Source: a virus. From it: a stretch of 21,336 nucleotides of DNA. Every line of letters begins with the position of its first letter. Position 1 is the stretch's first letter. Of this stretch, positions 3-20,746 are shown piece by piece. The translations under genes were made by a program, and so were the position numbers. The stretch lies in IMG/VR virus record IMGVR_UViG_3300007760_000107, positions 1 to 21,336 of that record; one strand, 5' to 3'. The notes under the pieces were generated by a model that was not told the origin of the DNA, made no database searches, and saw only the letters and a list, made by a program, of their open reading frames with translations.

Positions 3-608
3 TCTACATATGGACAGTTTGCTGACGATTCTTCGTTCGAGATTATTCCTACATGGCAGAATAAATTACAAGCAATTATGTATGAAGATTCAATTTATAC
101 AAGAACATCTCACTATTCATATGAAATTAAAGACAACAAGTTGAGACTTTTTCCTACTCCGAGTTATTGGGGCTTTGATGATACTTCTCGCATTTGGGTT
201 AATTTTTATGTCGATATGAAAAATGCGTGGGATAAAAATGCGAATTTTGATGACGGAAGAGAGGGCATCAACAACATTAATACTATTCCTTTTGATAATT
301 TGCCTTATGTAAACATCAACTCTATGGGCAAACAATGGATCCGTAAATATGCTTTAGCTCTGTGCAAAGAGATGTTAGGACAAATTCGTGGCAAGTTTGC
401 TACAATGCCGATACCGGGCGAAAGTGTTACTTTAAATCATGCTGAATTGCTCTCGCAAGCTAAAGAGGAACAACTTGCTTTAAAAGATAAATTGAGAGAA
501 ATTCTAGATAGAGTAAATTATAAGGAGTTGGCTAAGACGGATGCTGAAATGACGGATGCGGCAGTGGCGGCCCTTAAGAATTCGCCGCTCCCAATATTTG
601 TGGGGTAA
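3..608 (+). CDS. Neck/adaptor protein, 5'-truncated by the window edge (gp13-like, tentative)
   Basis: The frame is open from the first bases of the window, so the true start lies upstream; the ATG at 78 is internal. About 201 residues are visible. The visible N-terminal part is rich in aromatic and polar residues. It is followed by a stretch around WIRKYALALCKEMLGQIRGK and a helical, charged region (about residues 140-190 of the visible part) that looks like a coiled coil. The position, immediately before gp14-like and gp15-like genes and the sheath, matches the neck/connector slot of T4-like phages, where gp13 lies. A role in joining the head connector to the tail is inferred from this order and from a remembered resemblance to marine myovirus neck proteins. 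No catalytic motif is seen. The gene stops 7 bases before the next start. The neck assignment is moderate; the exact T4 equivalent is uncertain. Confidence 0.6.
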   Translation, partial: STYGQFADDSSFEIIPTWQNKLQAIMYEDSIYTRTSHYSYEIKDNKLRLFPTPSYWGFDDTSRIWVNFYVDMKNAWDKNANFDDGREGINNINTIPFDNLPYVNINSMGKQWIRKYALALCKEMLGQIRGKFATMPIPGESVTLNHAELLSQAKEEQLALKDKLREILDRVNYKELAKTDAEMTDAAVAALKNSPLPIFVG

Positions 609-2089: not shown

Positions 2090-5008
2090 ATGTCAGTTAA
2101 GAATTTTAAATTTGTATCTCCTGGGGTGTTTATTAATGAAATAGACAACTCGTTCATCCCGAGATCAGCGGAAGAGATAGGACCCGTTGTAGTCGGGCGC
2201 TCCACACGGGGCTTAGGTATGACTCCTGTAAAGGTTGCATCATACTCTGAATTTGTAGAAATGTTCGGAGACACAGTTCCTGGCAATGGTGGTGGAGACA
2301 TCTCCCGATATGGAAACCTTCAATCTCCCATGTACGGCACATACGCAGCTAAAGCGTTCTTAAATGCTAATGTTGCTCCTCTTACTTATGTGCGACTTTT
2401 GGGACAGCAAGAATCGGCAGCTACGGGCGACGGTCTCGCCGGATGGGAGACCCTTAATGATCCTGCTTCAACGCTCCACGAAAACGGTGGTGCCTACGGC
2501 ATTTGGTTGTTTGCTAGTGCTTCCGGTGACCAAGGATGGGAATCTAATTACTTAGGTACCGGCTCATTGGGAGCAATAGTATATGTCAACTCTGGTTCTA
2601 CCATAGAATTAAGCGGTGGTGGCATTGGATCCGACGCCGGCGCGACCGCAGGGGACGCCCCCTCTGCCTCTTATGCGGGAGTGGCGAAAGCCGTTGCCTC
2701 CACAAGTGACGGCACTATTACGGCTATTATTAGTAGTTCTGAGAATGCTTCTCCGCGTATAGTAATTGATTTTAATTTTGATGATTCGTCTGATTCGTTT
2801 ATTCGCAAGCGCCTTAACACGAATCCTCAATTGACGAGTGATGCTGGCACTTTTTATCCTTCTGCCTCTTTCAAGACTTATTGGTTAGGCGAATCATATG
2901 AACAAACTTTGCGCGATAACAGCCTCATTGGAGCCGCTGTGGGAGCAGCTATTGTACCTCTCGCTTTAAGCACTACAGTAGCTACGGGTCCCAACAACAA
3001 ACGCCAAGCCTCTCAAGAAGGAAAAACAGGCTGGGTTATTGCTCAGGATTTGGGAACTGCCGGATCCTTTGCTATTGAAGATATGCCTAAACTTTTTCAA
3101 CTAGTCGGCCGCGGGCATGGCGGATGGCTTCACAAGAATTGTAAAGTAACAATTGAAGACATTCGTAAGTCTGCCCTTTCCACTAGCGATTATGGAACAT
3201 TCTCTGTCGTAATTCGTAGACTTTCCGATAGCGATAACGCTCAAGAAGTAATGGAAAGATTTGATTTGTGCACTTTAGACCCAACGTCGGTTAACTTTGT
3301 TGCCCGCAAGATTGGTGATCGGTATGTGGTATGGGACACGACAGCACGACGACTTAAGGAGTATGGAGATTACCCGAACCAGTCTAAGTTTGTTTATGTA
3401 AAAATGGATGCCGACTGCGAAGCTGGCGCGACAGATCCTCTGTTACTTCCTTATGGCTATTTTGGTCCGCCCAAGTTTGTTGGATCAGAGAACCTTACGA
3501 ATCAAGGATCGTCACAGCCTTTGACACAGGGCGCCTGGTATTTTTATACTGGCTCAACTTTCGGAGCATTCCCAAGCGTCAACGCCAAACCATACCTCTC
3601 AGGAGCTACTGGGGGGACAGCAGCGCTGACGTCTTCAATGACTTTCCCTTCGGTAAGGTTGAGATTATCAGCTTCTGATGGCGGCATTTCCGACCCCACA
3701 AGAGCATGCTTTGGGATGTCTACAACGCGCGCCGCAGATAGCACCACTTTTGATCCCAGCGTAGGAGATTATCACAATATCCTTCGAGCCTCTTTCACAG
3801 GCGGCGGCGGTGATGGTGGCGCTACAGGAATCTTGGATCACGCTTATGTCTTCTCATTAGACGATGTTTGTGTGTCCAGTGGCAACTACTTCTATGTATC
3901 TGGCTCACGCCTCCTTGAAAATAGTGTCGCTTACGGCACGCTGCTAGCGGCAGGTTATGATAGCTTTACGATGCCTTTCTTCGGCGGCTTTGACGGATTT
4001 AACGAGAAGGTGCCAGATCCCATGTACAACAAGGGAATTCCAGGCGCTGGTGGCTCAGGGACCGGTACAGCTACGGAACAAAATAGTTCAGCTTACTATA
4101 CCTGGAAGCGCGCCATGGATACAGTATCCGATCCTGAAGCGGTCAACATGAATATGTTGGTGCCTCCAGGACTCACGGTTGACTCTCTCACTCAGCATGC
4201 AGTTAACATCTGTGAAGAGCGCGCCGACTCCTTAGCGCTTATTGATTTGTCGTCGGTATATATTCCTTCGGCCGAGCAATATGACCAGGGTGATAAAACC
4301 AATCGAATTGGAACAACGCCTTCAGCAGCAGCTACAGCGCTGCGCGATAGGCGGATTGACTCCAGTTACGGTGCCACTTTCTATCCATGGGTACAGACTC
4401 GGGATGAAAACACAGGACGTCTCCTGTGGATTCCGCCCAGTGTAGCAATGATGGGAGTTCTTGCAAGTTCACAACGCAAAACTGCAGTTTGGTTTGCGCC
4501 AGCCGGGTTCAATCGCGGCGGCTTAACTGACGGAGCAGCAGGAATCCCCATTACGCATGTTTCTGAGAGGTTGACCTCAAAGAATCGCGACACTCTATAC
4601 GATGCAAATATTAATCCTATTGCTTCATTCCCCTCCAGCGGTATTGTGGTCTTCGGTCAGAAGACTTTGCAAGAAGCCCAGTCGGCTCTTGACAGGATTA
4701 ACGTAAGAAGGCTTGTTATCTACTTGAAGAAGCAGATTTCAGTTCTTTCTACAAAGGTTCTCTTCGAACAGAACGTTCAAGCTACTTGGAACAGGTTTAC
4801 AAGCTTGGTTGAGCCCCTTCTTTCGAATGTGAAAAGTCAGTTTGGTATTACCGACTATAGGTTAATATTGGACGAAACTACAACAACGCCAGACTTAATT
4901 GATCAGAACATTTTGTATGCGAAGATTATGATTAAGCCGGCACGCGCCATTGAATACATTGCCATCGACTTTGTGATCATGAACACTGGCGCTTCTTTCG
5001 ATGACTAA
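2090..5008 (+). CDS. gp18: Contractile tail sheath protein, gp18-like, unusually large
   Basis: A 972-residue protein. It opens with 'FVSPGVFINEID' (residues 8-19), the N-terminal signature of myovirus tail sheaths that forms the strand linking sheath subunits. The C-terminal part (about 860-972; KKQISVLSTKVLFEQNVQAT, then YAKIMIKPARAIEYI) is the conserved core domain that packs on the tube. A conserved 'GGFDGFNEKVPDP' lies near residue 630. T4 gp18 has 659 residues, so roughly 300 extra residues sit in the Gly/Ser/Thr-rich region between about 100 and 630, probably surface domains of the sheath. An AGAGGAA ribosome-binding site precedes the ATG. The gene starts what looks like its own transcription unit and is followed by a hairpin and the tube gene. 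The protein should polymerise around the tube and contract on infection. Confidence 0.93.
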   Translation: MSVKNFKFVSPGVFINEIDNSFIPRSAEEIGPVVVGRSTRGLGMTPVKVASYSEFVEMFGDTVPGNGGGDISRYGNLQSPMYGTYAAKAFLNANVAPLTYVRLLGQQESAATGDGLAGWETLNDPASTLHENGGAYGIWLFASASGDQGWESNYLGTGSLGAIVYVNSGSTIELSGGGIGSDAGATAGDAPSASYAGVAKAVASTSDGTITAIISSSENASPRIVIDFNFDDSSDSFIRKRLNTNPQLTSDAGTFYPSASFKTYWLGESYEQTLRDNSLIGAAVGAAIVPLALSTTVATGPNNKRQASQEGKTGWVIAQDLGTAGSFAIEDMPKLFQLVGRGHGGWLHKNCKVTIEDIRKSALSTSDYGTFSVVIRRLSDSDNAQEVMERFDLCTLDPTSVNFVARKIGDRYVVWDTTARRLKEYGDYPNQSKFVYVKMDADCEAGATDPLLLPYGYFGPPKFVGSENLTNQGSSQPLTQGAWYFYTGSTFGAFPSVNAKPYLSGATGGTAALTSSMTFPSVRLRLSASDGGISDPTRACFGMSTTRAADSTTFDPSVGDYHNILRASFTGGGGDGGATGILDHAYVFSLDDVCVSSGNYFYVSGSRLLENSVAYGTLLAAGYDSFTMPFFGGFDGFNEKVPDPMYNKGIPGAGGSGTGTATEQNSSAYYTWKRAMDTVSDPEAVNMNMLVPPGLTVDSLTQHAVNICEERADSLALIDLSSVYIPSAEQYDQGDKTNRIGTTPSAAATALRDRRIDSSYGATFYPWVQTRDENTGRLLWIPPSVAMMGVLASSQRKTAVWFAPAGFNRGGLTDGAAGIPITHVSERLTSKNRDTLYDANINPIASFPSSGIVVFGQKTLQEAQSALDRINVRRLVIYLKKQISVLSTKVLFEQNVQATWNRFTSLVEPLLSNVKSQFGITDYRLILDETTTTPDLIDQNILYAKIMIKPARAIEYIAIDFVIMNTGASFDD

Positions 5009-5016
5009 AAGATGTG

Positions 5017-5033
5017 AGGGGGATTTTCCCCCT
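5017..5033 (+). terminator. Hairpin between sheath and tube genes (terminator-like, no U tract)
   Basis: AGGGGGA pairs perfectly with TCCCCCT around a TTT loop, 8 bases after the sheath stop codon. The 7-bp stem is G/C-rich but no run of T follows, so it is more likely to stabilise or process mRNA, or to terminate only partly, than to be a complete rho-independent terminator. Confidence 0.5.
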
Positions 5034-5037
5034 ACGC

Positions 5038-5051
5038 ACTAATTAAAACTA
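5038..5051 (+). promoter_or_regulatory. Degenerate copy of the putative late-promoter motif before the tube gene
   Basis: ACTAATTAAAACTA matches the core ACTATTTAAWGTA seen before the sheath and tape-measure genes, with a few mismatches. It lies 37 bases before the tube ATG, close to the 40-base distance seen for the tape measure. The region is A/T-rich and a chance match is possible. Confidence 0.3.
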
Positions 5052-5074
5052 GAACACACAGGAGTATCCATATT

Positions 5075-5665
5075 ATGCCATTCTGGTCAGAAAATTTCGG
5101 TGAGAGTGCCGACCTCAAAGATCCAAAGAGAAAATTTAGATTTAAAGTAGAGTTTCAAGGTATTGGAACGTCTGCTACCGGAGGAGCATTGCTATGGTAT
5201 GCGAAGACAAGCTCTAAGCCCTCCTTTCAAATAAGCGCGGCGGAACACAAATATCTCAATCATACTTTCTTTTATCCTGGCTCGGTGACGTGGCAAGATG
5301 TGACGGTAACTTTGGTTGATCCTGTAGATCCAGACATGACTGCAACTCTTTCCGATATCGTACAGTTGGCCGGATATTCTCCTCCCACTGATTCCAGCGA
5401 TTTGACTTCAATGTCTAAGGCAAAGTCTGCCAGCGCATTGGGGACCGTAATCATCACTCAAATTGATGCAGAAGGAAAGGACCTAGAGCAATGGACCCTG
5501 TGGAATTCTTTTATCACTGAGCTTAAGTACGGTGATTTAGAGTATGGCGCAGATGACTTGACTGAAATTTCCGTTACTCTCAAGTATGACTGGGCTCGTG
5601 TGAAGACAGCCGGCGTCTCAACTGCCGCAGCCGGCGATGGTGCCAGCGAGTTCTTCGCAGGTTAA
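5075..5665 (+). CDS. gp19: Tail tube protein, gp19-like
   Basis: A 196-residue protein, slightly longer than T4 gp19 (163 residues). The N-terminal 'DPKRKFRFKVEFQGI' strand, the central 'YPGSVTWQDVTVTLVDPVD' segment and the late 'TELKYGDLEYGADDLTEISV' beta-strand segment are the usual order in T4-type tail tube proteins. These stack as hexameric rings to form the channel through which DNA passes. The gene follows the sheath gene, the standard pairing in myoviruses. An AGGAG ribosome-binding site precedes the ATG. The last residues (about 178-196) are an Ala/Gly-rich tail without clear structure. No signal peptide or membrane segment is present. Confidence 0.88.
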   Translation: MPFWSENFGESADLKDPKRKFRFKVEFQGIGTSATGGALLWYAKTSSKPSFQISAAEHKYLNHTFFYPGSVTWQDVTVTLVDPVDPDMTATLSDIVQLAGYSPPTDSSDLTSMSKAKSASALGTVIITQIDAEGKDLEQWTLWNSFITELKYGDLEYGADDLTEISVTLKYDWARVKTAGVSTAAAGDGASEFFAG

Positions 5666-11050: not shown

Positions 11051-14000
11051 ATGGCTGGATGTTGGGATGGAGATGTTACCGATTTTGATGCTATTAAAGA
11101 ACTAGAGGCTGCCTACGTAGAGGCAGCCTTGGGGATTCATGCGGCTGCCAATCCTACTCAAACTGCTGAGGACGGGTCACCTATTCCAACGACAGAAGGT
11201 GCGCCTATTTGGATTGACGCAAACATTGGCTCTGACTATGCCGACTACTCCGAAGAAGGGGAGAAGTTTTGGGAGAACGCAGGGAGCAATGCCAACAAGA
11301 TTTGGGGAACGTGGATGGTGGGTAACTACCAAACGAGCGGACTTGGGGACACTCGTACAGCTTTGTTCAACATACAGAGAGAAATCAATACCCATCAAGG
11401 GCTCGACCCCGCTTTGATGACCGACGAGCACAGGGCGGACATCACAGCGAAAATTGAAGCTTTCAAAGAAGCTTATCCCGACCTAGCACAATGCACCGAT
11501 GGACTGCAAAAACAGGCGACTGACGATTACAGAAAGTTTCTCACAGAATTAATGGACAAAAATGACATGTTGAGAGGTCTCCCAGAGGAGATTGCCAGAA
11601 TCTCTGAAGGCGCAAAAAATTCAGCAGTAGGACAAAAGTGTTTAGCTGCCCGAGCCACCGCCACGGACCGAGGCGTCTCAGCGGAGGATTTAGCGAGCGT
11701 CCAATTCGACCCCGCCACATCTGCAGCTTGCGAAGCATATGATGCGGCCATGAGCAGGGGTGCAGACCTGAAAGAACGAAAAGAAGCTCTCGTTGCGTCC
11801 GCCACGTCTACCGGCAAAGAGGGGATCGTGTTCAAAGAGCAATGTTTTTTGTTAGGTCACATTTATCAGTTGTCTCAACTTAAACAAACGCTCGATGAAG
11901 AGCAGGCACTCAAAAGCCTTCCTTATCAAGGGGGCGGCACCAATGCATGCTTGTTGGCACAGGGCGATCCTTTTGCTTTTATGAACAAACTAACTCAACA
12001 TATAGGGAAAGACGGAGATAGCAGCAAAGCAGCATTTTTTGATATGAAGACAGCACAACTCTCAAGCTTGCAGCCAATGATTAGATTATTTAAAGTTATC
12101 AGTGATAAGAAAGGCAACGAAAGCCAAATAGAAATGAAGTTTGATTCTTTTTATACGAGCATGGCATATCCTTGGGGCGCTACGATGCAAAGTGCTATTG
12201 ATAGAGGTGCTGCCCCATTTTTACGAGGGGGTTTCATGGGTGATCTTGAAGACTTTTTGATGAACAAAAAGAGGCGTGGCCACGGAGTAGGAATTAAAAA
12301 GTTTACCTTTTCTTATGAAGCCGATAACCCTTTTGCAATTAAAAAGAGTATCAAAGCTAAACTAGTATTGCATGCAAATACTTTTGATGAGCTTTTAAGA
12401 GATCGGGGCGATTATTCTTATGCGGATTTGGCACTTAAAACCGGAGGGTTGCCTGACGGACCCCAAGGGTGTAAACCCGTAACCACTGATCAGATTAACC
12501 CGCTCGATCATGACGTAAGCACCGTACCTGAAACTAAATTAAACTTTCGTCTTAAAGCCATCGTAGGCTGGGCGCGCCCCGGTACAGATAGTTTGATTCC
12601 ATCGGGCGATCCTCTCAAAAAAGCTATTGAAGATTCGTGCATTACTTTAAATCTCACTCCCACTATTCATGAGTTTAATATTGACGAACAAGGGCGCGTA
12701 GAGTTTGTATTAAATTATTTAGCATACGTAGAAGACTTCTTTGACCAATCTGTCTTTAATATTTTTAGCGATCCTACAGTCACAGTCAGTCAACTGAATC
12801 GCAAACTTCAATATCAAGAATATAATAAAACTTGCGAGACCGAAAAAGTAAACGAATTGCGGTCGTCTCAAAAAGATCTTATGCAAGCAGAAATTGATAC
12901 TAGTATGCAGTCCTTAGTTACAAATTTGCTCAATGAAAGAAAAATTCAATTCTTAGATATTCCTTTAGCAGAACTGGTAACATTCCAGGCGGAGGGTCCC
13001 ATCCGAGGAGAAATAGATTTAGCGCCATATATTTTGGGCATGCCACCAGGCTATGAACCAACATTAACAGAGCAGTTATCTTCCGATGTTGAAGTACGCA
13101 CCAATGCACTTAGAGACGTCAACCCTGCACAAGCAGTGAGTTATTTTTATATTAGTGATTTAATTGATATTATTTTGAAAGGGATCGAAAAGACACTAGT
13201 GGACATCAGCGAAGGATCGGTTTCAGTGGGAAGCAGCACTGACGATCCAGAGGGCATTATAACCGAACAACAGATTATGGATGAAAGAGCCAATTATGTT
13301 CGCTACTTAGAAAACTTTAAAAAATTCAGGTTGTTGTTGGGACCAATGGAAATTGTGCATACCACTAAGGCGGATCCCGTCACCGGGAAGGGCGGCACCA
13401 TAGAGAGTAAAATGATATGCATGGGCGATGTTCCCATATCTGTAAGGTATTTTATTGAATGGTTAACTAAAAAAATGTTAAAGAAAGATGAAGCCGTCTA
13501 TCCGCTTCCCAAATTTTTAAATGATTTGTTTAACGAATTTTTAAGAACCTTCCTGAACAACGACACATGTTTTAGCAACGTTGCCAAACAGTCTACTAAA
13601 CTAGCACAAGCTTCGCTGACTGCTTATAAAGAAACTGTTGATGGCCCCGATGAAATCACCGCCGCCATACAACGCACAACATATGATGTGCCACTGGATG
13701 ATGCAACAATGCGCGCAAACAGCGATGCCTGGCGCCAAACTCAATTGTTGGTAGAGCAGGGAGTACTCCCTGCTGATGCAGTAAATGACGATATGATAAC
13801 CGATGTACGAAGCGTCCCCGCTAAGCGCTTGCGTATCGACCGGTCTGAGCTTTCTTATCCATTATTAAGCATCTCGGGACAACGCGGAACTGCCATCGTC
13901 GATCCCGGCTTTGCGAAAGAAATTAATTATTTAGTTTATTTCGCTGCGCGTACCTATCCTACTGAAAAGATGAACGGAGACAAAGACGAAGATCAAACGC

Positions 14001-14467
14001 GAGGCATTTGGCATTATCAGATAGGAAAACCCACAGGCATCATTAAAAACATTAACTTAACTAAGACTGACGCTCCAGGTCTCAAGGAGGTTCGCTTTGA
14101 ACAACAAGGATATGATGGGCTTCAACAGTTGAGAGAAATGTATGATGCTAAGATAAGCACATATGCAGATGTAAGTGCTTTTCCCGGCAATTATATATTC
14201 ATCGACCCTGCAGGCTTTTCACCTAGTGTGAATAGCGAGTACGATTTGACACAATTGGGAGTGGGGGGATATCATATGATTATTCGTTCGGAACACACCT
14301 TTGGTCCTGGCGTGGCTAACTCTGAAATTACAGCAAAATGGGTAGCGGAGATAACGAAGCCTGGGTGTGTGGTGCCGAAGCAGGTTGATGAAGAGGACAA
14401 AGAAGTTGATTATAGTAAATGCACATTGCCCTCTCGTCAGGCGGCAGCAGCGGAGTCAGGCACATGA
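11051..14467 (+). CDS. Large putative baseplate/structural protein (1138 aa)
   Basis: A 1138-residue protein starting 3 bases after the LysM-like gene, with GGGGAT as a ribosome-binding site. The N-terminal 300 residues are charged and Ala-rich with several Cys. Residues about 320-600 look beta-rich, with 'TPTIHEFNIDEQGRVEFVLN' and 'EDFFDQSVFNIFSDP' as notable segments. The C-terminal 250 residues contain many aromatic and Gly residues (for example GNYIFIDPAGFSP and GGYHMIIRSEHTFGPG) and end in a polar tail with two Cys. I recognise no enzyme motif. Size and position among baseplate genes suggest a hub, spike-complex or wedge protein of the virion; this is inference. It overlaps the next gene in ATGA, so translation is coupled. 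Confidence 0.6.
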   Translation: MAGCWDGDVTDFDAIKELEAAYVEAALGIHAAANPTQTAEDGSPIPTTEGAPIWIDANIGSDYADYSEEGEKFWENAGSNANKIWGTWMVGNYQTSGLGDTRTALFNIQREINTHQGLDPALMTDEHRADITAKIEAFKEAYPDLAQCTDGLQKQATDDYRKFLTELMDKNDMLRGLPEEIARISEGAKNSAVGQKCLAARATATDRGVSAEDLASVQFDPATSAACEAYDAAMSRGADLKERKEALVASATSTGKEGIVFKEQCFLLGHIYQLSQLKQTLDEEQALKSLPYQGGGTNACLLAQGDPFAFMNKLTQHIGKDGDSSKAAFFDMKTAQLSSLQPMIRLFKVISDKKGNESQIEMKFDSFYTSMAYPWGATMQSAIDRGAAPFLRGGFMGDLEDFLMNKKRRGHGVGIKKFTFSYEADNPFAIKKSIKAKLVLHANTFDELLRDRGDYSYADLALKTGGLPDGPQGCKPVTTDQINPLDHDVSTVPETKLNFRLKAIVGWARPGTDSLIPSGDPLKKAIEDSCITLNLTPTIHEFNIDEQGRVEFVLNYLAYVEDFFDQSVFNIFSDPTVTVSQLNRKLQYQEYNKTCETEKVNELRSSQKDLMQAEIDTSMQSLVTNLLNERKIQFLDIPLAELVTFQAEGPIRGEIDLAPYILGMPPGYEPTLTEQLSSDVEVRTNALRDVNPAQAVSYFYISDLIDIILKGIEKTLVDISEGSVSVGSSTDDPEGIITEQQIMDERANYVRYLENFKKFRLLLGPMEIVHTTKADPVTGKGGTIESKMICMGDVPISVRYFIEWLTKKMLKKDEAVYPLPKFLNDLFNEFLRTFLNNDTCFSNVAKQSTKLAQASLTAYKETVDGPDEITAAIQRTTYDVPLDDATMRANSDAWRQTQLLVEQGVLPADAVNDDMITDVRSVPAKRLRIDRSELSYPLLSISGQRGTAIVDPGFAKEINYLVYFAARTYPTEKMNGDKDEDQTRGIWHYQIGKPTGIIKNINLTKTDAPGLKEVRFEQQGYDGLQQLREMYDAKISTYADVSAFPGNYIFIDPAGFSPSVNSEYDLTQLGVGGYHMIIRSEHTFGPGVANSEITAKWVAEITKPGCVVPKQVDEEDKEVDYSKCTLPSRQAAAAESGT

Positions 14468-15663
14468 GCATTTATAGCGAAGACCCCAAAGCCGAATCGG
14501 TGAGCGAACTGTTTTATAAAAAAACTATTTATAATAATGATTCTATAACTTTAGGTTATGACAATTTAGTTGATTTTAATTTTGGAGAAAAGCTTTTATA
14601 TGGACGAGTGACTCAATTGTTTGTACCTATGGAGACAATGGGCGCCGGAGCCAACATGAAAGCTCTTCCCAACAAGCAGGCTGTAGAGGAGAACGCACAG
14701 GTTATTAATTTTGTAGCTGATGCATTCAAGGGGCTCTCGCAAGAGTTTGAGCGCTGCGCGCAGACTAAAAAAATTGATACGACCGATCCTTTTTTGACCA
14801 CCCTTAAAGTATACAAATCGTATGAAAAACCTCGTGTTCATTACCAGACACACCAAGCTAACTATACTAATGCACTTAAAGGCGCCTTCAAGGCGAAAAA
14901 TGTGCACCTTGAAAATTTTGAACAATTCATAAAAGAACTCACAGCAGCACTGGAAGGTGCAGTCGGCACCACTCCTTTCACCTATCCCGCATATATCAAA
15001 AGTCGCCGCTGCCCTGCTTCTGTTTCCGGCTTGGCAATAGAAATTGCAAATTTGGATCCCAACAACGATAAAGAGAAAATGGAAAAGTTTGTTGAGAGTA
15101 ACAATTGGGAGTTTTATTTAAATGCGTGCCGCTCTTATGGGTTTATGGTAGATAGACATATCCCTTGGCGCCTCGTTGCTGATATCGGCTCTTCCCCTAT
15201 GATTCAATATGCCAGCGCTTATGGTTCTAATTCAACTCCCAAGGTGTTGGGGACCTATTATATGCCGGCTTATAATTCGTACTATCACACCTTTAAAGGC
15301 CAACTGTTGACGATATATAATAGAATTAAGCCGAAGTATATTAGAAAAACCGATGAATGTAACGGCAAGACAATCAATATCACCATTCGCCCCGCTGACT
15401 ATACGCCAGCTTACTTGAATCTTAAGTTTTCAGAAGAATTTTTTTTAGAAACGTATTTTAAGATTAGATTCATGGAAGAAGAATCGCAGTTTTCACCCGA
15501 AGAGAAGCGGTTGCTTGTGGACGACTTGTTAGAAATCAACAGAACACACAGCGCAATGAAAGCAGTTGCACAATTTGAACGAATTCTTAATAAACCATTT
15601 GACTATCGTGGCTCTTTGAGTTATATTATAAAGAGGAAAAAGCTTTTAGAAGCTACGGAGTAA
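14464..15663 (+). CDS. Uncharacterised protein, probably virion/baseplate-associated
   Basis: A 399-residue protein from the ATG at 14464, which shares ATGA with the preceding stop. A longer in-frame start at 14419 would add 15 residues that are only the out-of-frame reading of the upstream gene. The protein is soluble, mixed alpha/beta and rich in Tyr, with 'ESNNWEFYLNACRSYGFMVD' near the middle and 'FDYRGSLSYIIKRKKLL' at the end. I recognise no family or active site. Its coupling to the large baseplate gene suggests a structural or tail-assembly role. It is followed 2 bases later by a polymerase gene, so it marks the boundary between late and replication functions without any visible terminator. 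Confidence 0.55.
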   Translation: MSIYSEDPKAESVSELFYKKTIYNNDSITLGYDNLVDFNFGEKLLYGRVTQLFVPMETMGAGANMKALPNKQAVEENAQVINFVADAFKGLSQEFERCAQTKKIDTTDPFLTTLKVYKSYEKPRVHYQTHQANYTNALKGAFKAKNVHLENFEQFIKELTAALEGAVGTTPFTYPAYIKSRRCPASVSGLAIEIANLDPNNDKEKMEKFVESNNWEFYLNACRSYGFMVDRHIPWRLVADIGSSPMIQYASAYGSNSTPKVLGTYYMPAYNSYYHTFKGQLLTIYNRIKPKYIRKTDECNGKTINITIRPADYTPAYLNLKFSEEFFLETYFKIRFMEEESQFSPEEKRLLVDDLLEINRTHSAMKAVAQFERILNKPFDYRGSLSYIIKRKKLLEATE

Positions 15664-15665
15664 AT

Positions 15666-16841
15666 TTGTTTTTCCAAACGCTTGATGACAAAAGAGAATG
15701 CGTTGGCGTGTATGCCAATGGCAAGTTACATTTTGATGAGATTCCGACAGGGCTTACCAAAACGTGGAGATATACTGGTTCCATTGTTGAGCCGGGTATT
15801 GAATATGCATGGCTGTATGCGCAAGGGAAAACCTTACAAGAGGCATGCCCCGAAGAACTTCAAGCAGACTTGGAGAGAGCCCAAAAGAGATTCAATGCTT
15901 ATATGAAAGCCTTTAAAATTGGTAAGATTGACATGCGTCATCATTGCTTTTTTGACTTAGTGCCTGAAAATTTTTTAATGGAATTTTGCGAGATTAAGAA
16001 CAAGGTCACAGAACACGTATTTAAGACTTATGAAAAGCCAACGAATTATGATCTGCTTGAGGGATCCCATCGACTTCTCCATAAGATAAAATATCAAAAC
16101 CTTAATCTTAATAAAGAAGGATGTCGAGAACTCTATTATTCATCCCGTGGACGCAGCAAAGCCAACGAGCTTATGAAAAATTACTACTACGTAGACTACA
16201 ACCTGTTTGGCACGGTCACAGGGCGCCTTACCACCTCTCCAATTTCGTTTCCCATGCTCACACTTAAGAAAGAATTTCGTAAGCTTGTAAAGCCTCACAA
16301 CGATTGGTTTATTTCGCTTGATTACAATGCGGCCGAGCTTAGAACGTTCCTTCATTTGATGGGAGAAGAACAGCCAGAGGAAGACGTCCATGAATGGAAC
16401 GTTAAACATGTATTTGGAGGAAAACAGGATCGCGAGACAGCTAAGACTTTATTTTTTGCATGGCTTTACAATCCCGAATCAGATGCTATCAAAGCGGATC
16501 AATATGATAGAAAAAAATTGCTTGACAAATGGTATGATAATGGATATATTAAGACACCATATGGCAGAGAGATTTTGGTTGACGAGAGAAAAGCTTTAAA
16601 TTATCTGATTCAAAGCACAACCTCAGATCGTGTTTTAAGCAGGGCAATTGAGATCGATAAGCTATTAGAAGGGAGCAACTCTTTTGTTTCCCACATTGTA
16701 CATGATGAAATTGTAATAGACTTAGACGACAGCGAACGACAAATGCTTCCCACTCTCAAAGGGTTGTTTGAAACTGATAATTTCAAAGCTAATGTGAGGG
16801 CCGCCAAGAACTATTTTGATTTTGAAGAGTTAAAAATATGA
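15666..16841 (+). CDS. Miniature family A DNA polymerase without exonuclease domain
   Basis: About 391 residues from a TTG start with CGGAG 5 bases upstream; no ATG lies near the beginning. All family A polymerase motifs are present. 'TGRL' is at 185-188. Motif A is DYNAAELR with catalytic D219. The O helix reads R256-x3-K260-x3-F264-x3-Y268, equal to R754/K758/F762/Y766 of E. coli Pol I. 'GYIKTPYGRE' is at 293-302, and motif C is VHDE with D347. Motif A to motif C spans 128 residues, against 177 in Pol I, and the stretch after the O helix is cut from about 60 to about 25 residues. No 3'-5' or 5'-3' exonuclease motifs are seen; the first 110 residues are unrecognised. It should extend DNA primers during phage replication. 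A related arrangement (separate polymerase and exonuclease genes) is known in the far-T4 phage RM378. Confidence 0.88.
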   Translation: MFFQTLDDKRECVGVYANGKLHFDEIPTGLTKTWRYTGSIVEPGIEYAWLYAQGKTLQEACPEELQADLERAQKRFNAYMKAFKIGKIDMRHHCFFDLVPENFLMEFCEIKNKVTEHVFKTYEKPTNYDLLEGSHRLLHKIKYQNLNLNKEGCRELYYSSRGRSKANELMKNYYYVDYNLFGTVTGRLTTSPISFPMLTLKKEFRKLVKPHNDWFISLDYNAAELRTFLHLMGEEQPEEDVHEWNVKHVFGGKQDRETAKTLFFAWLYNPESDAIKADQYDRKKLLDKWYDNGYIKTPYGREILVDERKALNYLIQSTTSDRVLSRAIEIDKLLEGSNSFVSHIVHDEIVIDLDDSERQMLPTLKGLFETDNFKANVRAAKNYFDFEELKI

Positions 16842-17698
16842 TTTCGATAGTAGGACTCGGCACTGCTGCTTCTAGGATTGCCGAGAAATTCGCAGTGCTC
16901 CCACAATATAATGTATATTGTTTAAACAATAGTGTCAAGCGCACATCTAAATTTAAATTTAAATTAAAAACATATGAAACTCCAGAAGAGCACGAAAATA
17001 ATGTGCCAGATGTTAGAAAGTTTTTTAAAGATGCGGACGAGCGAATACAATTTTTTGTAATGGGTGCATCTCTGAGTTCTAACTATAGTTTAGGGATCTT
17101 AGAGCAACTCAAAGATAAACAAATCGATCTTGTTTATGTTAGACCAGATGTGGACTTATTAACAGGCATACCCAGGTTAATGGAAAACGCTACCTTTGGC
17201 ATTCTACAGGAGTATGCACGTTCGGGATTGTTCAACAGCATCACATTAATTTCTAATTTAAAAATGGAAGAAATTGCTCACAACATTCCTGTGAAAGAAT
17301 ATTATGACACTCTCAATAACATGATTCATTCTACTGTTCATTATATAAATTATTTTGAGCACAACGAACCTGAAATTGGAGTGCTAGCAAAGCCATCTGA
17401 GATTTGTCGGGTCCAAACCTTTGGAATATTGGACATGAAAAAACTTGAAGAAAAATGGTTCTTTGACCTTGACATCGACAGAGAGGTGTGTTATTATTTA
17501 TGTATAAATAAAGAGAAATTAGAAACAGATGGAGGCTTGCATCGGAGAATGGTTACGATGCTAAAAGAAAAACCTCACAATGCCTATAGGAAGCTTTCTT
17601 ATGGGATCTATGAAACCGAAACAGGTAAAGACTTTGGGTTCTGCGTTGCCCGCACTAACGTAGTACAAGAAACTCTTGACAAGCTAGAGCAAGAGTGA
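16838..17698 (+). CDS. Divergent tubulin/FtsZ-like protein (candidate)
   Basis: A 286-residue protein translationally coupled to the polymerase (ATGA). The order of segments follows FtsZ. A Gly-rich nucleotide-binding start is 'MISIVGLGTAASRIAEKF' (1-18). A strand-loop-helix is at 71-90 (FFVMGASLSSNYSLGILEQL), where FtsZ has GGGTGTG. 'VRPDVDLLTGIPRLMENATF' and 'LFNSITLISNLKMEEI' correspond to the FtsZ pattern of P(F)..EG..R...A then D.(L)I.I.N..L. A helix follows, then 'PEIGVLAKPSEICRV' in the T7-loop position. The last domain (EVCYYLCINKE, then KLSYGIYETETGKDFGFCVA) resembles the FtsZ C-terminal domain. Canonical residues are missing: the GGGTGTG loop is degenerate and NxDxxD is absent, so GTP hydrolysis or polymerisation cannot be assumed. 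If correct, it may position phage DNA or virions, as PhuZ does. A different Rossmann-type protein is the main alternative. Confidence 0.55.
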   Translation: MISIVGLGTAASRIAEKFAVLPQYNVYCLNNSVKRTSKFKFKLKTYETPEEHENNVPDVRKFFKDADERIQFFVMGASLSSNYSLGILEQLKDKQIDLVYVRPDVDLLTGIPRLMENATFGILQEYARSGLFNSITLISNLKMEEIAHNIPVKEYYDTLNNMIHSTVHYINYFEHNEPEIGVLAKPSEICRVQTFGILDMKKLEEKWFFDLDIDREVCYYLCINKEKLETDGGLHRRMVTMLKEKPHNAYRKLSYGIYETETGKDFGFCVARTNVVQETLDKLEQE

Positions 17699-17730: not shown

Positions 17731-17758
17731 ATAGTCATACTAATAAGGAGAAAAAAAT

Positions 17759-18734: not shown

Positions 18735-19850
18735 ATGTCAAATGTACAAATTGTAGCCACCCAACAGGCTTATATTGTTGGATCACCCACCCGTCCAGGT
18801 TTCAACGGACAGGGAATTATTGACCTGAATGACTTTACTGGTCTACACCCTACTGAGTTTGAGGACTGTACCTTTTCTCATTTTGAGTTTCTTGATTTAA
18901 ACACAGTAAATCTTGATACTGAAAACTTTGCCAACCTTGGTATTCGTGAGGATTTTGAAGGAATAGATGGCAATCGAATTGATGAACTTGAAGTTTCATT
19001 TGAGAACAATGGTTTTGAAACCGTTGATTGGCCACCAAGTCGCGACAGTAACGGTGAATGGATCGACGGTCGTGGGCGCGCCCAAGCAGCTATTAATCGC
19101 AAGGAGCGATGGCTGCCAATTGCAGTTTATGATTGCGAAAATGCATCAATCAGCAACACTGTAACCAATGGTATCAAAGGCAACCTTGGTGGGCGACCTT
19201 CAACCAAAGCGGGCTATAGAGATATCGTTACTGCTGGCGTTCACTTAGTGAATGCGGGCGAACTAGACGCGGATCGCCTTAGCGATATCAATAATTGGCT
19301 CAAAAAGCGTCTTGAGTTGTGGCGCTACTTTAAGCCGGATTTGATTACGAAAATGAGTAATTCTATCATTGAAGAAAGCACACGCGATGAGTCTTTAATT
19401 CTTCGCAAGAAAACCAATGCTTGGCATTCATGGATCGAGCGTAATCTTAAGCTTGATCGCAATAAGAACGAGTACGTTTTGGTGAATGCTTCCGAGAAGT
19501 CTTACGACACCTACATTCAACGCGTCTGGTGCGAGAGTATTTTGCCAGCCATTGTCGAGGGTACCGATCCGGTAGATATTATTTTCTACACTAGTGTGTA
19601 TCGCCCGGGCGAAGCTCGAAACGGACTAGCTAAATCAATTAAAAAACTGGACAACCTTTACAACATGTCGTTCAGTTTAGTTGAGAGTCAGCTTGCGTCG
19701 GTCAACGTTGATTTGGATGCATTTTTGAAAGCGACCGGGAAGCAACTCGATAGCAGCAATAAGCCATATAACATCATTGGTGCGTGTCCACAGATTGTGG
19801 CTAGTCATGATTATGAAAGTGGCGAACTTGTTGATGTGGATAATTACTAA
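18735..19850 (+). CDS. ParB/sulfiredoxin-like domain protein
   Basis: A 371-residue protein with an AGGAG site. Residues about 80-135 (IDELEVSFENNGFETVDW, then NGEWIDGRGRAQAAINRKER and WLPIAVYD) match the ParB N-terminal pattern, in which 'I.EL..S...NG' precedes 'DG.GR..AA' and 'LP..V.D'. Members of this superfamily include CTP-binding ParB, Srx and phage or plasmid nucleases. The segment from about 150 (LGGRPSTKAGYRDIVTAGVH) to 215 is helical and could bind DNA. The last 120 residues are unrecognised. Typical partition parS-binding features and a ParA neighbour are absent, so a partition role is unlikely. The stop codon overlaps the Dam gene start (TAATG), so the two proteins are probably made together; ParB-like domains are often linked to DNA methylases in phages. 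Domain call moderate to good; function inferred. Confidence 0.72.
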   Translation: MSNVQIVATQQAYIVGSPTRPGFNGQGIIDLNDFTGLHPTEFEDCTFSHFEFLDLNTVNLDTENFANLGIREDFEGIDGNRIDELEVSFENNGFETVDWPPSRDSNGEWIDGRGRAQAAINRKERWLPIAVYDCENASISNTVTNGIKGNLGGRPSTKAGYRDIVTAGVHLVNAGELDADRLSDINNWLKKRLELWRYFKPDLITKMSNSIIEESTRDESLILRKKTNAWHSWIERNLKLDRNKNEYVLVNASEKSYDTYIQRVWCESILPAIVEGTDPVDIIFYTSVYRPGEARNGLAKSIKKLDNLYNMSFSLVESQLASVNVDLDAFLKATGKQLDSSNKPYNIIGACPQIVASHDYESGELVDVDNY

Positions 19851-20746
19851 TGAAAACTCCACTGCGTTACCCTGGCGGTAAATCTCGCGCAGTTAAGACG
19901 ATAATGGAATTCATTCCCGCAGACTGTGGGGAGCTTTGCTCCCCCTTTCTCGGGGGTGGTTCTGTTGAGTTAGCTGTGGCCGAGAGAGGAACGAAAGTTC
20001 GCGCCTACGACATCTTTAAACCTTTAGTCTGGTTTTGGGAATCTCTACTGAGTACACCGCACCAACTAGCCGAAGCAGCCGATAGCTATCGCGTCTCGCA
20101 TCCGGATTATTTATTGCGCAAGTCGCGCAAAGACGAAGAGCTTGTTCCAGTACGAGGGCTACTGAAGGATGAGTTCCACAAACTGCGAGAGGAACTTCGT
20201 ACTGAGACGACTCACTCTCTGCAAAATGCAGCCAAGTTTTATGCGATAAACCGAAGCAGCTTTTCAGGCGCCACCTTCAGTGGAGGCTTTTCAAAGCGCG
20301 CCTCCTACGCACGTTTTACCGACTCGTCAATTGACAGGATTCGAAACTTCAAGGAGCCAAACCTAACAGTGGCACAGGCACACTTTAAAGATTCGATCCC
20401 TAAGCATCCGGATGCATTTTTATATCTCGACCCTCCCTATATGCTAAAGAAAGAATACATACCAGAGCATGCTGATGAAAGAACTGGCAAGCTTATTGAT
20501 GGATACTGGATGGATAGAGACAGGCTTTATGGAAAAGACGGAGACCTACACTCATCATTCGACCACAAAGGCTTGCATGATATTTTGACACAGAGAAAAA
20601 ACTGGGTTCTTTCTTACAATGACTCTCCAGAGATTAGGGATTTATATAAAAATTATAAAATCGTTGACGCTGAATGGGCTTATGGCATGAAGAACGTGAA
20701 ACAAAAGAAAATGGGTTCTTCATCAGAGATACTAATTATAGGGTGA
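19850..20746 (+). CDS. dam: Dam-type DNA N6-adenine methyltransferase
   Basis: A 298-residue protein overlapping the ParB-like gene by one base (TAATG). 'LRYPGGKSRAVKTI' (5-18) and 'SPFLGGGSVELAVAERG' (31-47) form the S-adenosylmethionine-binding part of the D12/Dam class (alpha order, SAM motif first). 'FYAINRSSFSGATFSGGFSK' follows, and the catalytic DPPY is in 'FLYLDPPYMLKKEY' (about 191-204). 'VLSYNDSPEIRDLY' near 265 is also typical. The length is close to that of Dam enzymes (about 270-280). It should methylate adenine in phage or host DNA, plausibly GATC, but target specificity cannot be read from the sequence. GATC is not depleted in this window. The next gene starts at TGATG, one base overlapping. 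Confidence 0.9.
   Translation: MKTPLRYPGGKSRAVKTIMEFIPADCGELCSPFLGGGSVELAVAERGTKVRAYDIFKPLVWFWESLLSTPHQLAEAADSYRVSHPDYLLRKSRKDEELVPVRGLLKDEFHKLREELRTETTHSLQNAAKFYAINRSSFSGATFSGGFSKRASYARFTDSSIDRIRNFKEPNLTVAQAHFKDSIPKHPDAFLYLDPPYMLKKEYIPEHADERTGKLIDGYWMDRDRLYGKDGDLHSSFDHKGLHDILTQRKNWVLSYNDSPEIRDLYKNYKIVDAEWAYGMKNVKQKKMGSSSEILIIG

Follow-up and report, generated by a model that had tools for sequence, protein, structure and literature searches.

Tubulin-like proteins of phages are known from the nucleus-forming Chimalliviridae, which encode PhuZ, and from isolated cases among other large phages (PMC11835377); they have also been described for jumbo phages (PMC7824862), and a TubZ is carried by a plasmid-prophage (PMC7950403). 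TubZ, found on Bacillus plasmids (PDB 4ei7, 2xka) and in a clostridial phage, is a GTPase that treadmills and is accompanied by a partner gene, TubR. In alpha/beta-tubulin, BtubA/B, and archaeal FtsZ1/FtsZ2, two members of the superfamily are kept together. Assembly-coupled hydrolysis in FtsZ, TubZ, PhuZ, and tubulin depends on the T4 G-box, i.e., the phosphate-binding loop GGGTGTG, and on the acidic residues of the T7 loop. Literature searches, subscription papers and preprints aside, yielded neither a polymerase-coupled or degenerate phage tubulin nor two tubulins in a single phage. The initial annotation had held that a tubulin-like gene coupled to a DNA polymerase would be a new setting.

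Such a gene, hereafter pseudo-tubulin, was characterised in the window, the whole 21,336-nucleotide stretch of viral DNA analysed (IMG/VR record IMGVR_UViG_3300007760_000107), and in its relatives. Judging from the gene sequences, it is a new branch of phage tubulins that is catalytically degenerate, belongs to the core gene set of a T4-like lineage, coexists with a canonical tubulin, and apparently falls within none of PhuZ, TubZ, and FtsZ. Like PhuZ (phiKZ gp39), pseudo-tubulin is a phage-encoded protein with a tubulin fold, but it is about 40 aa shorter than the phiKZ protein, lacks the G-box and the T7 acids, occurs in T4-like phages bearing gp23, and is ATG-coupled to a family-A polymerase. 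The PhuZ family phrog_4733 was matched neither by the window protein nor by 38 relatives and four divergent members. TubZ is the second-best structure match, and a DNA-linked role like its own is plausible, whereas pseudo-tubulin adjoins polA and gp32 genes and has no hydrolysis motifs. The best structure matches are CetZ and FtsZ (PDB 3zid, 2r6r, 1w59), with which T1-T6 and H7 are colinear; in contrast to these, pseudo-tubulin has an altered T4 loop, carries neither GGGTGTG nor NxDxxD, and is viral, not a division or shape gene. The lineage resembles the two-tubulin systems in keeping two superfamily members, one of them with degenerate catalysis, comparable to the non-hydrolysing site of tubulin dimers. 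Unlike in those systems, the two phage genes lie ~40 kb apart, encode proteins of very unequal size (278 and about 376 aa), and are unequally conserved.

The initial annotation had placed the open reading frame exactly: it starts with ATG at 16838 and closes with TGA at 17698, after 286 codons, while the strand opposite is closed by many stops. The annotated ATGA coupling to a polymerase was also recovered, with the upstream gene assigned to family A by Pfam DNA_pol_A (Table 1), and the overlap would couple translation of the two proteins. These gp23-bearing phages use a short family-A enzyme, as opposed to the family-B gp43 of T4; at 391 aa, the window polymerase is probably too short for an exonuclease domain. 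The 414-aa protein encoded directly 5' of it, which has no family match in Pfam or PHROGs, adjoins the polymerase in most related loci and is a candidate replication or late structural gene. Further downstream, the window encodes a protein of 371 aa (18735-19850) in which one stretch, GRGRAQAAI, is ParB-nuclease-like; it is found in a minority of related loci and followed directly by a Dam-type adenine methyltransferase (19850-20746). The gene order resembles that of Flavobacterium phage immuto (polA, two small genes, SSB, RecA, exonuclease, DnaB), but the two small immuto genes between polA and SSB (151 and 171 aa) are unlike pseudo-tubulin by eye. In the part of the Rhodothermus phage RM378 annotation that was covered, there is no pseudo-tubulin counterpart.

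Table 1. Features of the pseudo-tubulin locus and of the canonical tubulin genes in related contigs. Positions refer to the window unless a contig is named.
Feature	Position	Strand	Basis
Conserved 414-aa protein, directly 5' of the polymerase, same gene block	14419..15663	+	Homologues in 199 ORFs of related loci
Short family-A DNA polymerase, 391 aa	15666..16841	+	Pfam DNA_pol_A E 3.5e-15; phrog_17 E 3.9e-25
ATGA, pseudo-tubulin start codon overlapping the polymerase stop	16838..16841	+	Sequence; -4 overlap in relatives
Small tubulin-fold protein (pseudo-tubulin), 286 aa	16838..17698	+	ORF; AlphaFold2 model, structure matches
Parts of pseudo-tubulin	GTPase-like N-domain, residues ~1-150; H7, 152-174; C-terminal beta domain, ~180-273; disordered tail, 280-286		AlphaFold2 model
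AAGGAG ribosome site of the gp32-like gene	17745-17750		Sequence
gp32-like single-stranded DNA-binding protein, 256 aa	17759..18529	+	Pfam gp32 E 1.2e-15; phrog_1192 E 5.1e-23
Canonical tubulin	L317:5284-6435; L323:6001-7149		Intact motifs
Canonical tubulin homologues	G001, G002, G003, G004, G006, G010, G013, G015, G026, G027, G029

Seven scanning rounds of IMG/VR yielded about 240 locus entries with pseudo-tubulin relatives, whose overall identity to the window protein spans 100% to about 32%. In pairs of close relatives with unsaturated dS, dN amounted to 0.05-0.09 of dS (dN 0.08 and dS 1.5 between the window gene and L002), and the protein is therefore under strong purifying selection. The number of relatives, the low dN/dS, and the overlap kept in 135 of 139 loci together argue that the reading frame is not a product of chance. 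Beyond IMG/VR, tblastn searches of INPHARED (50,697 phage records) gave no pseudo-tubulin match, some returning chance-level matches only; no relative was found in the GTDB genomes scanned, nor in plasmids with the divergent member L243 as tblastn query. Pfam, PHROGs, and NCBIfam held no accepted family for the window protein, and PDB sequence searches, with the single sequence and with the profile, came back empty. The Pfam Tubulin model gave weak matches only to single members (L314, E 0.03; L130, E 0.1), and the NCBIfam ftsZ equivalog TIGR00065 was unmatched by P0001, L243, and L313.

The genomic position is conserved as well. After exclusion of identical loci, 139 had a recognisable start and enough upstream sequence; a family-A polymerase preceded pseudo-tubulin in all of these, with the exact 4-base ATGA overlap in 135, and a gp32-like gene followed in nearly all loci with room. 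When the search was reversed and started from the polymerase, all 41 loci, with polymerase identities as low as 42%, contained pseudo-tubulin. Of 14 long contigs of relatives, 13 encode gp23, the major capsid family of T4. On this syntenic evidence, pseudo-tubulin belongs to the core genes of a T4-like phage lineage that bears gp23, and is strictly retained there.

The tubulin fold proposed in the initial annotation was examined through structure prediction and fold searches. The AlphaFold2 model, built with 93 relatives, reached a pLDDT of 93.1 and a pTM of 0.90 and was confident throughout, bar the last seven residues; tubulin folds ranked on top. The best PDB match was CetZ 3zid (Z 23.9, rmsd 3.1, 262 aligned residues), followed by TubZ 4ei7 (Z 22.8, rmsd 3.6, 281 aligned) and FtsZ 2r6r (Z 21.7, rmsd 3.9, 272 aligned), with eukaryotic tubulins at Z about 21. 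Overall, the tubulin-fold matches had Z 21-24 over 262-283 residues, spanning model residues 1-286 and both domains; a Rossmann-only fold devoid of the C-terminal domain, named in advance as contrary evidence, did not emerge. Foldseek returned FtsZ 1w59 (E 8e-13) and TubZ (E 1e-12), and the VIA-align step re-examines Foldseek's own matches, so that the absence of other folds there proves nothing. An earlier AlphaFold2 model, built from 39 sequences and poor in its C-terminal part, gave the same tubulin-fold answer. Among viral models (BFVD, Foldseek), the best match was A0A6J5RW92 of an uncultured Caudovirales phage (E 2e-14, TM 0.74, 16% identity), ahead of other phage tubulin-like proteins; annotated as 'FtsZ Cell division GTPase', it is 452 aa long, a size that suggests a canonical tubulin and not a member of the pseudo-tubulin family.

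Profile comparisons with the tubulin families backed homology across residues 2-179. The pseudo-tubulin profile aligned colinearly over this range with a profile built from FtsZ and PhuZ together (FtsZ+PhuZ; E 1.8e-6 to 3.9e-6, probability 87-90%), against controls of E 0.13-0.15 for reversed and 0.23-0.26 for an unrelated polymerase profile; for scale, PhuZ and FtsZ profiles match each other at E 1.7e-7. Compared with PhuZ on its own, it matched in the N-domain at E 1e-4 to 3e-4, with T4 loop on T4 loop. By predicted fold and by profile, pseudo-tubulin is therefore a member of the tubulin/FtsZ superfamily.

The segment order read from the letters was recovered as well, comprising the Gly-rich start, the P..G..R...A block, the I.LISN strand, the T7 region, and the C-terminal beta domain. 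Across 104 pseudo-tubulin members, the T1 glycine G8 and E50 of the T3 segment were invariant (104/104 each), and P103 in T5 (103/104), N140 in T6 (102/104), and, within H7, Y/F156 (101/104) and N160 (104/104) were nearly or fully so; position 140 is H in G002 and G015, which lie outside this set. N140, Y/F156, and N160 presumably correspond to the guanine-base contacts of FtsZ and tubulin, an equivalence taken from the colinear profile alignment and not from superposed coordinates. The T4 G-box ([SAG]GGTG[SAT]G) and the T7 catalytic loop NxDxxD, whose loss had been noted in the window protein, were missing family-wide (0/104 each). The G-box site usually reads G(S/A)SxSSNY and the T7 segment is of the EPEIG or TPLVG type, the latter leaving one sub-clade without any acid. 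In divergent members, the T1 loop is more complete (GQAGCNIA) and the T4 loop survives in part (AGGGKIAGSS in L313, GSGxISGxS in others), a pattern suggesting that a normal G-box eroded step by step. The motif counts indicate that the T1 glycine and the putative guanine-pocket residues of T6 and H7 are kept while the T4 G-box and the T7 acids are lost. Of the tentative suggestion that the protein is perhaps a non-GTPase, what stands is that loss of the signature loops throughout the family fits a non-canonical or a non-GTPase form. Many pseudo-tubulins end in a short disordered tail, TLDKLEQE or TLDSLETE (window 17674-17695), reminiscent of a protein-binding tail and absent from others.

A second, canonical tubulin gene was found in the same phages. 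On 14 long contigs, Pfam Tubulin recognised a ~380-aa protein above the cut-off in five and below it in a sixth, and a dedicated profile found the canonical tubulin in 9 of 13 contigs, with three copies cut by the contig end. The uncut genes share the strand of pseudo-tubulin and lie 38.6-45.0 kb upstream of it; for the cut copies, located at the contig end, the distance agrees. An approach from the opposite side added two contigs, and wherever a contig reached 39-45 kb upstream, the canonical gene accompanied pseudo-tubulin (11/11). The four contigs without it are no exception to this two-tubulin rule, because they reach only 9-37.5 kb upstream. The window, a 21-kb fragment, ends before the position in question; its nearest tested relative, G013, is 69% identical, and a second tubulin in the window's own phage may be inferred from such relatives. 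In G013, the two tubulin genes span 12246-13370 and 56865-57701. The lineage thus appears, from its gene content, to be a two-tubulin one lying outside the nucleus-forming phages. In L317, a 1035-aa ORF (2180-5287), a fusion of SbcD (1-368) and SbcC (325-1034) corresponding to the T4 gp47/gp46 functions, lies immediately 5' of the canonical tubulin gene and overlaps its ATG.

The canonical tubulin has intact motifs (T1 GVGGGGNKM, T4 GGGGGTGSS, T7 FDSKDLE) and a conserved N-terminal FDFLP motif, and is much more conserved than pseudo-tubulin. Its profile matched FtsZ+PhuZ at E 1.9e-14, and it scored E 4e-15 with TIGR00065, far below the cut-off of that model; in INPHARED, nothing was found except a weak match to gp138 of Bacillus phage G (E 8e-4). 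Recent duplication of this gene as the origin of pseudo-tubulin is unsupported, the two profiles matching each other weakly (E 0.036-0.046) and at the N-terminus only. The pseudo-tubulin match became no better when canonical tubulin sequences were included in the reference profile.

In our preferred reading, to which we assign a probability of roughly 0.45, pseudo-tubulin would be a nucleotide-binding, non-hydrolysing tubulin at the replisome, acting as a partner (adaptor, cap, or nucleator) of canonical-tubulin filaments. It would bind guanine nucleotide, as its conserved pocket suggests, and hydrolyse it poorly or not at all; made together with the polymerase, it would be located at or near the replisome, where it may tie replicating phage DNA to canonical-tubulin filaments or regulate these filaments. 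The arrangement would amount to a two-component version of the job that PhuZ and TubZ perform with one tubulin. Conserved gene order can, for its part, arise without physical contact among the products.

A somewhat unlikely alternative confines the protein to the replisome, as a polymerase or SSB accessory or a processivity factor built on a co-opted tubulin fold and unrelated to filaments or to the canonical tubulin. The strict polA and gp32 neighbourhood with its ATGA overlap speaks for it, as does the family-specific conserved patch QEYARS (124-129) ending helix H5. Across seven contigs, moreover, pseudo-tubulin divergence tracked that of polA (r 0.60) and gp32 (r 0.64) and not that of the canonical tubulin (r 0.12), in pairs that are non-independent and for linked genes that share a history; the pattern leans towards the replisome side over a tight hetero-dimer with the canonical tubulin, with linkage as a confounder. 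The C-domain of the T4 gp45 sliding clamp, absent above the cut-off from the 14 long contigs, would also leave room for a processivity factor, but this argument is weak, given that a diverged clamp may escape detection and that the contigs are fragmentary. Against a replisome-only role, the canonical tubulin is kept without exception in the same phages, so that enlisting this fold for an unrelated purpose would be a coincidence. Somewhat unlikely, too, is a bolder reading in which a tubulin is part of the phage replisome: pseudo-tubulin would be a stoichiometric PolA/SSB partner and, jointly with the canonical tubulin, build a cytoskeleton of two components, physically coupling DNA synthesis to filament dynamics in a T4-like phage that has no phage nucleus.

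That pseudo-tubulin, its GTPase site altered, forms PhuZ- or TubZ-like filaments on its own to position phage DNA is improbable. The fold covers the whole chain, including the C-terminal domain needed in polymerisation, the pocket residues are retained, and the PhuZ profile is matched at the values given above, but the T4 G-box and T7 acids are gone in every member, the TPLVG sub-clade has no acidic residue in its T7 segment, and the lineage already possesses a canonical tubulin.

Quite improbable is a decoy role, in which the protein would insert into the FtsZ filaments of the host or cap them and prevent cell division, even though a tubulin fold minus its hydrolysis motifs would suit a filament poison. 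Gp0.4 of phage T7 is not known to be a tubulin. Its complex with host FtsZ provides a precedent for such a decoy (PMC13423816); pseudo-tubulin, however, is always encoded between the polymerase and SSB genes and not among host-takeover genes, and its conservation is stronger than expected of a host-facing inhibitor. Finally, a non-tubulin Rossmann-type protein with superficial resemblance is hardly credible and, as a dehydrogenase, rejected: some relatives have weak Pfam matches to Rossmann families at the N-terminus (NAD_binding_2 and F420_oxidored, E about 0.02), and L248 matches TrkA_N around S4/T4 (E 6e-5), whereas the confident full-length model matches tubulins over both domains, all listed structure matches are FtsZ, TubZ, CetZ, or tubulin, and the FtsZ+PhuZ profile match runs along 2-179.

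If the preferred reading of a replisome-associated partner of canonical-tubulin filaments is true, pseudo-tubulin would be a natural tubulin that keeps its base pocket yet drops hydrolysis, and if both tubulins cooperate, DNA replication would be directly linked to a cytoskeleton in a virus.
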